This document shows positions 281-55,655 of a DNA stretch of 64,000 nt, piece after piece. Source of the DNA: a bacterium BMS3Abin06 (lineage in GTDB: Bacteria > Nitrospirota > Thermodesulfovibrionia > UBA6902); assembly GCA_002897895.1 (NCBI GenBank), contig BDSY01000032.1, positions 1-64,000 on the forward strand, read 5' to 3'. The position numbers and the translations under genes were made by a program. Every line of letters begins with the position of its first letter. Within the stretch, counting starts at the first letter, position 1. The notes under the pieces were generated by a model that saw only the letters and a program-made list of their open reading frames with translations, did no database searches and had not been told where the DNA came from.

Positions 281-315
281 GAAAAAAATAACAATAAAAT
301 ACAGTAAGTTCTATA

Positions 316-467
316 CTTAAGAGTACCGAGTTCTCTTTTAACATGTTGATTCTAAAGAAAACGTCATGACCACGCAGTTGTCATTCCCGCTTGTCGGGAA
401 TCCGGGAAAATCAAAGGGTTATAGATTCCGGACAAGCCGGAATGACAGAACTCGGTACTGTCGAGTT
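316..467. mobile_element. MITE-like element, copy 1
   Basis: Terminal inverted repeats AGTACCGAGTTCT / AGAACTCGGTACT (322-459) around an inner GTCATTCCCG..CGGAATGACA palindrome; identical 152-bp copy at 53714-53865. Confidence 0.85.
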
Positions 468-473
468 CTATAT

Positions 474-15130: not shown

Positions 15131-15155
15131 AACAGTCTCCTTTAATTGCTTTTCA

Positions 15156-15290
15156 GGTAACTACTCAGGTGCAAAGTGGCAAAGGCACACAGGCACAAAG
15201 GGTTACAGAAATACAAGAAAAGTTTTTCATCCTTTTTTTCACTTTGTGCCTTTGCCACTATGTGCCTTTGTGCCTGCCTGAATAGTTACC
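15156..15290. repeat. GTAACTACTCAGG-bounded hairpin repeat, copy A
   Basis: GGTAACTACTCAGG...CAAAGTGGCAAAGGCACA...TTTGTGCCTTTGCCACTATGTGCC...CCTGAATAGTTACC inverted repeat. Confidence 0.85.
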
Positions 15291-22268: not shown

Positions 22269-22359
22269 TTAATATATTTCCTTCAGCTGTTAATTGTTAA
22301 CCGGCAACCGTGAAGGTTAGTTTTTAACTTTGTGCCTTTGCCCCTTTGCGCCTCGGCCG

Positions 22360-22965
22360 TTAAACATTTAAAAAACTCCTTATCTCATTTACCGGGATTT
22401 CCGGCTCTTCATCGACTTTTCCGGCATAGATAATTTTTTCGGAGCCGTCTTTCAACTTTAGTGATAGAGTGATAAATTCTTCTGTGTCACCTAATCCCGG
22501 CATGGCGCTTCCATGCTGTGCAGAAATCTTCTGGACAAATTTAATTCCGTCAATATTTTCAGGGACAAATTTTTTGTTCCCCAGGTCAACCGACTTTATG
22601 TCATCAAAATGTATTTTCTCAATCTTTTTTCCAATAATTCCGGGGCGGACTATATTCACTGATTTATCCGACCTGTCAAAATCTACCTCAAGATATCTTT
22701 CTTTAAAAATATATTTAATGGCTGCGAGTAAGGCAATGACGAATATAAAGATGAGAATGATATAGCGGACAATTGCCGGTTTGATGCCCGGCAGACCGGT
22801 AGACATATACGCAAGAATACATACTGCCGATGCAAATAATGTCGAGGAAAATTCCCTGGTGTAAACACCTGGGTGAAGCACACTGGACTTCTCTGCTTTA
22901 AATGAAGAAGTTCTGAAAATGAGTCTGTTGTTTTCAGTTTTAAGCTGATAATCCTTAGCTGTCAT
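22360..22965 (-). CDS. Hypothetical membrane protein between carA and carB
   Basis: 201 aa, two TM segments; overlaps carA. Confidence 0.6.
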   Translation of the reverse strand: MTAKDYQLKTENNRLIFRTSSFKAEKSSVLHPGVYTREFSSTLFASAVCILAYMSTGLPGIKPAIVRYIILIFIFVIALLAAIKYIFKERYLEVDFDRSDKSVNIVRPGIIGKKIEKIHFDDIKSVDLGNKKFVPENIDGIKFVQKISAQHGSAMPGLGDTEEFITLSLKLKDGSEKIIYAGKVDEEPEIPVNEIRSFLNV

Positions 22966-26300: not shown

Positions 26301-26430
26301 GTAACTGCTCAGGCGCAAAGTGGCAAAGGCACAAAGGCACAAAGGGTTACAGAAATACAGGAAAAGTTTTTCATCCTTTTTTTCACTTTGTGCCTTTGCC
26401 ACTATGTGCCTTTGTGCCTTTCATTTACTG
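26301..26430. repeat. GTAACTACTCAGG-family hairpin repeat, copy B
   Basis: GTAACTGCTCAGGCGCAAAGTGGCAAAGGCACAAAGGCACAAAGG...CTTTGTGCCTTTGCCACTATGTGCCTTTGTGCC. Confidence 0.85.
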
Positions 26431-27235: not shown

Positions 27236-27368
27236 GTAACTACTCATGTAGGCACAGAGGCACAAAGTATCAAAGGGACAAAGTAAAGGAAAAGGATAAA
27301 AACTTTCCTTGTATTTTTTTTAAACTTTGTGCCTGTGTGCCTTTGTCACTTTGAACCTGAGTAGTTAC
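27236..27368. repeat. GTAACTACTCAGG-family hairpin repeat, copy C
   Basis: GTAACTACTCATGTAGGCACAGAGGCACAAAG...CTTTGTGCCTGTGTGCCTTTGTCACTTTGAACCTGAGTAGTTAC. Confidence 0.8.
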
Positions 27369-27402
27369 GAGAGGAGTAACTATTAATGTATGGAGGGTTG
27401 AA

Positions 27403-52941: not shown

Positions 52942-53697
52942 ATGTCTGATCTTCTTAAAAAAACAAGGGATGTAATCAGGAAAAAGTATCCGTCTTTTGA
53001 GTACACGGTTTTTAATGAGACTCCTGTCACCCCCCTTGCCAAACCTTTGCACGAATGTAAACTTGCATTGCTGACTACCGGCGGTCTTCATTTAAAAACA
53101 GATACACCGTTTGATACCAAACACCTTGAAGGAGACTGCTCTTACCGTATGCTTCCCAATGATCTCAAACATGAAGATATAATGGTGACACACGAATCAT
53201 ATGATCATAAATTTATAAACAAGGATCTGAATTGTGTATTTCCGATCGACAGAATGAGAGAATATGTGCAGGAAGGGAAGATCAAATCGCTCTCAGAAGA
53301 GCATTACAGTTTTATGGGGCATATTTATGTCACAGGCCCCCTTCTTGAGAATTCAGGAAAAGTCGGTAAACGCCTTAAAGAGCTCGGCGTTGATATTGCC
53401 TTCCTGACTCCCACCTGAGTTATCTGCAATCAGTCGGTCGGACTGATATCAAGAGGAATAGAAGAATCGGGAATCAGCGCTGTTTGCGTCACGTTCAGAA
53501 GAGATATTATCGAGCTTGTCAGACCGCCAAGGATATTGTCCCTGAAGTTTCCACCTGGCAAACCCCTCGGGAATCCGGGTGATAAAAAGATGCAGCGGGA
53601 TATTATCAATGCCGGTTTTGATCTCCTTCAAAAAGATATAAAAGATATGACAATAGTTGATCTGCCGTTTAAATTAAAAAAATTCGGGATATTTTAA
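52942..53697 (+). CDS. GrdB-family (selenoprotein B-like) candidate selenoprotein, in-frame UGA at 53416-53418
   Basis: Readthrough gives ...LGVDIAFLTPT-U-VICNQSVGLISRGIEESGISAVCVTFRRDIIELVRPPRILSLKFPPGKPLGNPGDKKMQRDIINAGFDLLQ...GIF*, matching the glycine/sarcosine/betaine reductase selenoprotein B family; UxxC; SECIS-like hairpin. Confidence 0.88.
53429..53447 (+). promoter_or_regulatory. Candidate bacterial SECIS element (GrdB-like)
   Basis: ATCAGTC-GGTCG-GACTGAT perfect 7-bp stem; loop starts 17 nt after UGA with G at positions 1-2. Confidence 0.78.
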
Positions 53698-53713
53698 CTG
53701 TAACAATTATGTC

Positions 53714-53865
53714 CTTAAGAGTACCGAGTTCTCTTTTAACATGTTGATTCTAAAGAAAACGTCATGACCACGCAGTTGTCATTCCCGCTTGTCGGGAATC
53801 CGGGAAAATCAAAGGGTTATAGATTCCGGACAAGCCGGAATGACAGAACTCGGTACTGTCGAGTT
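53714..53865. mobile_element. MITE-like element, copy 2
   Basis: Identical to 316-467; TIRs AGTACCGAGTTCT / AGAACTCGGTACT; 16 bp after the GrdB-like stop. Confidence 0.85.
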
Positions 53866-53873
53866 ATGTCGAA

Positions 53874-55530: not shown

Positions 55531-55576
55531 TATCTGCAATCAGCCGGTCGGACTGATATCAAGAGGAATAGAAGAA
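55531..55576 (+). repeat. Degenerate duplicate of the GrdB-like SECIS region
   Basis: TATCTGCAATCAGCCGGTCGGACTGATATCAAGAGGAATAGAAGAA matches 53421-53466 with one mismatch. Confidence 0.85.
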
Positions 55577-55655
55577 CCAGGCAGTCACAGAGGCATAAAA
55601 AGAAAATGAGAAACTCATGCTTTGCTGAGGATTGCCGTACATAAACAGGCAAATC

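Follow-up and report, generated by a model that had tools for sequence, protein, structure and literature searches.

A recently mobile 150-bp MITE with an embedded REP-like doublet in a Thermodesulfovibrionia-like bacterium, and its presumed parent insertion sequences

Overview

The repeat found at two loci of the window (the whole 64,000-nucleotide stretch of DNA analyzed here) is, with a probability of roughly 0.93, a non-autonomous MITE that is mobilised in trans by the DDE transposase of an IS with matching 19-bp ends. In the mechanism that we propose, the transposase of such a full-length IS would bind the TIRs of the MITE and excise or copy it; insertion would then occur at AT-rich, mostly intergenic sites, with a staggered cut giving rise to target duplications of 6-8 bp. 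Elements of this kind are well documented and ordinary mobile DNA, the sequence itself being a new family member, and the general picture of mobile DNA is left unchanged by it. What it adds is a MITE family, clean and recently active, from an uncultured Thermodesulfovibrionia-like (Nitrospirota) lineage, and its tie to a widespread group of ISs, the DUF6788 partner gene of which has no described function. Like the bacterial MITEs MITEAba12, Chunjie and the Correia elements, it is short, lacks a transposase gene, is bounded by TIRs and target duplications, and is present in many near-identical intergenic copies; unlike them, it has a different presumed parent IS and contains a REP-like doublet (the comparison is one of traits rather than of sequence).

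Structure and boundaries of the element

Comparison of all genomic copies set the boundaries of the element at CTTAAG...GTCGAG, giving a length of 150 bp (Table 1). The sequence-only reading had proposed an identical 152-bp element at the two window loci: the identity stands, but the additional "TT" shared after both copies belongs to the target duplications, which differ between copy 1 (TTCTATA) and copy 2 (TTATGTC) but both begin with these two bases. Likewise, the 13-bp TIRs of that reading correspond to a perfect inverted core, AGTACCGAGTTCT, of a longer, imperfect TIR of 19 bp with 16/19 matches (CTTAAGAGTACCGAGTTCT / CTCGACAGTACCGAGTTCT). At up to two mismatches the core has four sites in the window, against a mean of 0.59 in shuffled sequences, none of which reached four. 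Between the TIRs lie 45 bp followed by a 67-bp REP-like doublet. There is no transposase gene, just a short open frame continuing into the flanking DNA. The whole strand of the MITE folds into a single extended hairpin (-58 kcal/mol, z -6.1), as is expected from its nested inverted repeats.

Table 1. Positions in the window of the two MITE copies, their parts and their target duplications
Feature	Position	Strand	Remark
Target duplication TTCTATA, left of copy 1	309-315	.	
MITE copy 1, 150 bp	316-465	+	among 15 identical genomic copies
Left TIR, copy 1, CTTAAGAGTACCGAGTTCT	316-334	+	same as DUF6788-side end of the full IS in L152
Embedded REP-like doublet, copy 1, GTCATTCCCG..CGGAATGAC	380-446	+	half-sites also free-standing in the genome
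Right TIR, copy 1, CTCGACAGTACCGAGTTCT	447-465	-	
Target duplication TTCTATA, right of copy 1	466-472	.	
Target duplication TTATGTC, left of copy 2	53707-53713	.	
MITE copy 2, 150 bp, identical to copy 1	53714-53863	+	
Left TIR, copy 2	53714-53732	+	
Embedded REP-like doublet, copy 2	53778-53844	+	
Right TIR, copy 2	53845-53863	-	
Target duplication TTATGTC, right of copy 2	53864-53870	.	

Copy number, target duplications and relatives

A search of the genome (G000; 2.98 Mb in 112 contigs, 92% complete) supplied the copy count that had been suggested as a check: there are 22 full copies, along with up to four partial or contig-edge pieces. Fifteen of the full copies are identical and the remaining seven differ by 1-4 bases, while the 19-bp ends are present in all 22 with at most one mismatch per end. 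Twenty-one of the 22 have target duplications of 6-8 bp (14 of 7 bp, six of 8 bp and one of 6 bp), and when left and right flanks were swapped among copies just 1 of 462 pairs displayed a repeat of at least 6 bp. The duplications are 80% A+T. One full copy (L014) is without a clear duplication, and two others have 1-2 extra bases between the duplication and the end. In a simple scan, 20 of the 22 copies fall outside open frames of at least 70 aa; of the other two, L022 splits a frame of 408 aa and L006 is close to the end of one of 81 aa.

Beyond this genome, full copies with 98-99% identity are found in a genome of the same genus (G001), and a 151-bp relative (76%) with 19-bp TIRs and the duplication TCAATAA is found in another family (G044). 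The conservation of the TIRs, on which the sequence-only reading had staked its case, extends across all full copies, the sister species, G044 and the full-length ISs described below.

Insertion sequences with matching ends

That reading had also pointed to a search for a full-length IS with the same TIRs. In the MITE's own assembly none with the exact TIRs was found, all matches with zero or one mismatch being MITE ends; the search succeeded in another genome, where one end of an IS matches at 19/19. In assemblies of this type, ISs with many copies are often fragmented or missing. TIR searches across the order recovered TIRs at contig edges and elsewhere, several with a DUF6788 gene or its remnant inward of them. 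The DUF6788 loci of the MITE's own genome led in turn to a divergently oriented transposase, homologues of which in the class yielded the complete elements L151 and L152. The IS in L152/L156, from the MAG Thermodesulfovibrionales bacterium Ess09-11, is 1890 bp long, is flanked on both sides by TTATCTA and encodes DUF6788 and the transposase. It is its DUF6788-side end, CTTAAGAGTACCGAGTTCT, that is the same as the left end of the MITE, and the subterminal AGTTCTC..TTTTAACA, at the start of the 45-bp part, is also common to the MITE and this end of the IS. Other members of the group, from other genomes, have ends matching those of the MITE at 13-18/19.

A search of named genomes, both MAGs and isolates, uncovered relatives at 30 loci, spread over Proteobacteria, Acidobacteria, Verrucomicrobia, Chloroflexi, Planctomycetes and Nitrospirota. 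Their boundaries were sought independently of the TIR sequence, the sole criteria being a direct repeat (6 bp or longer) and an inverted repeat (12/20 or better). At seven loci this delimited complete elements that have matching ends and a duplication of 7 bp (L156, L160, L161, L163, L166, L172 and L174); the ends of L164 are weaker, and the 6-bp repeat of L165 is displaced by one base. Two copies on Paraburkholderia plasmids, flanked by 8- and 10-bp direct repeats, have ends of this kind as well and lack a recognisable DUF6788 frame. The complete ISs range from 1837 to 1930 bp, have duplications of mostly 7 bp and encode a DDE-type transposase, accompanied in most members by the divergent DUF6788 gene. 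We infer that this autonomous-looking group, with ends like those of the MITE and mostly 7-bp duplications, includes the presumed parent, that its transposase moves the MITE, and that the DUF6788-side end of such an IS gave rise to the MITE, the REP doublet having been captured inside.

The sole relatives of this IS found in the MITE's own genome are on contigs C58 and C26, both of which begin inside an IS of the DUF6788-associated group. Hence, an alternative, which we regard as unlikely but worth weighing, is that the MITE is moved by this diverged resident IS (TIR CTGGACAGTGCTAAGTTCT) instead of one of the CTTAAG/CTTGAG type. The right end of the MITE indeed shares GACAGT with the C58/C26 IS (15/19). 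However, both MITE ends are better fits to the DUF6788-side ends of the CTTAAG/CTTGAG type from Nitrospirota (15-19/19, versus 13-15/19 for C58/C26); moreover, stops interrupt the C26 copy, which is a remnant, and the C58 copy is cut by the contig end. An IS of the CTTAAG/CTTGAG type is thus the preferred source of the transposase.

Two further leads were set aside. The DDE_Tnp_1 transposase frames beside a TIR at L091 and L108 are external to the TIR and part of a different element. DUF6788 alone is a poor marker of the IS, since many of these genes in relatives (e.g. L115-L119 and L130) are located between chromosomal genes, with no TIRs or transposases nearby. Separately, a genome assigned to another family (G040; L145, contig C13) encodes a transposase 98-99% identical to that on C58 (L111), and the neighbouring DNA is near-identical to that of G001 (L108, contig C165); this could be either a recent transfer or a misbinned contig.

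Classification of the presumed parent

The best named match of the IS transposase is NCBIfam NF049999, "IS701 family transposase" (E 1e-42 to 1e-47), with scores of 162.4 and 144.9 bits that are below its 170-bit cut-off. While this resemblance places it near the IS701/IS4-type ISs, the presumed parent differs from IS701 in its mostly 7-bp duplications, as opposed to 4 bp (PMC2266710, Table 1), and in mostly having a divergent DUF6788 gene. The IS4 subgroup ISPepr1 has duplications of 7-8 bp, ends of the form YT-AA-YTT---A and a size of 1500-1600 bp (PMC2266710). The duplication length of the presumed parent agrees with these values, but its ends (CTTAAGAGTACCG) mismatch at positions 7, 8 and 13 and its size of 1837-1930 bp is too large, leading us to reject ISPepr1 as the parent. 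We tentatively raise the possibility, with rather less than even confidence, that the parent represents an undescribed IS group spanning several phyla, with a DDE transposase, a divergent DUF6788, CTNRANAGTNCC-like ends and 7-bp duplications; it may already be named in ISfinder. In such a group, DUF6788 could act in transposition as an accessory factor or as a regulator, and the MITE could serve as a substrate for its study. In the library searched, no paper mentions DUF6788 and none joins a MITE with the IS701 family.

The embedded REP-like doublet

The inner palindrome noted in the sequence-only reading (GTCATTCCCG..CGGAATGAC) is present, but is not a feature specific to the MITE: it is a separate genomic REP-like repeat carried as a passenger. 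The inner 67 bp comprise two inverted GTCATTCC palindromes, resembling REP/BIME palindromic repeats, and have matching repeats in many further genomes from the order; about 20 half-sites are free-standing in G000 outside the MITE. Unlike REP/BIME repeats, the doublet is here enclosed within a TIR-bounded element, which thereby illustrates a REP doublet as passenger DNA of a TIR-type element. A 130-bp element in another genome (G002) retains the TIRs and the TAACATGTTGATT stretch and is devoid of the doublet. Together with the free-standing half-sites, this REP-free relative suggests that the doublet was probably captured by a smaller MITE, a scenario we favour over its loss in the 130-bp element.

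Empty sites and the unit of transposition

Matching element-free flanks to their orthologous sites in G001 revealed four loci that are empty and retain a single copy of the target: TTATCTA at L007, AATTTGAT at L018, CAAGATA at L005, and GCAGTTA in place of GTAGTTA at L011. A fifth candidate, L009, is ambiguous. At the empty sites the mobile unit runs exactly from TIR to TIR, with duplications of 6-8 bp. The recent movement proposed from the two window copies is accordingly borne out by the 15 identical copies, the 21 with target duplications and these four sites.

The same sites bear on whether the sequence is a REP/BIME-type repeat spread by a RAYT (Y1) transposase, with the outer TIRs being incidental. 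The occurrence of the doublet across the order and its free-standing half-sites are in line with such an origin, as is the presence of Y1_Tnp genes (seven matches in the genome, with a GTCATTCC site in only one of the seven neighbourhoods examined). However, Y1 transposition makes no target duplications. The duplicated, TIR-to-TIR unit and the 130-bp relative with the same TIRs and no REP core largely refute RAYT-driven spread, which we consider highly improbable compared with mobilisation by a DDE transposase. That the window copies result from assembly or segmental duplication, as their perfect 150-bp identity within a 112-contig assembly might suggest, has a negligible probability, given that the 22 copies each have their own flanks and target duplication, that the two window copies are set in unrelated flanking sequence, and that the clean, single-target empty sites in G001 point to real transposition.

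As a further observation, the MITE copy at L007 (G000:C102:18189-18348) has inserted into the loop of a hairpin that resembles a terminator (AACAGCCCCTGT..ACAGGGGCTGTTATTTT) and lies downstream of a gene; in G001 this site is empty and intact.

Gene context of the window copies

Both neighbourhoods agree with the sequence-only reading. Upstream of copy 1 is the 3' end of a group II intron (202-280; Rfam RF00029, 42.5 bits), and the MITE and its 7-bp duplication are followed directly by the ATG, at 473, of a truncated frame resembling beta-carbonic anhydrases (identified by eye). An open frame at 366-713 begins inside copy 1 and continues in frame into the truncated carbonic anhydrase, and is possibly a fusion.

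Copy 2 starts 16 bp downstream of the TAA, ending at 53697, of a GrdB-like frame (52942-53697; identified by eye). This frame contains an in-frame TGA (..LTPTU VICNQSVG..) and is likely to encode a selenoprotein. A 51-bp direct repeat (94%; 53421-53471 and 55531-55581) is located in or near TGA-containing GrdB-like frames, which suggests two related selenoprotein genes 2.1 kb apart. The window also contains a further repeat family, AAAGGCACAAAG / CTTTGTGCCTTTG, in direct and inverted orientations at 15143-15289, 22321-22362, 26301-26421 and 27236-27382.
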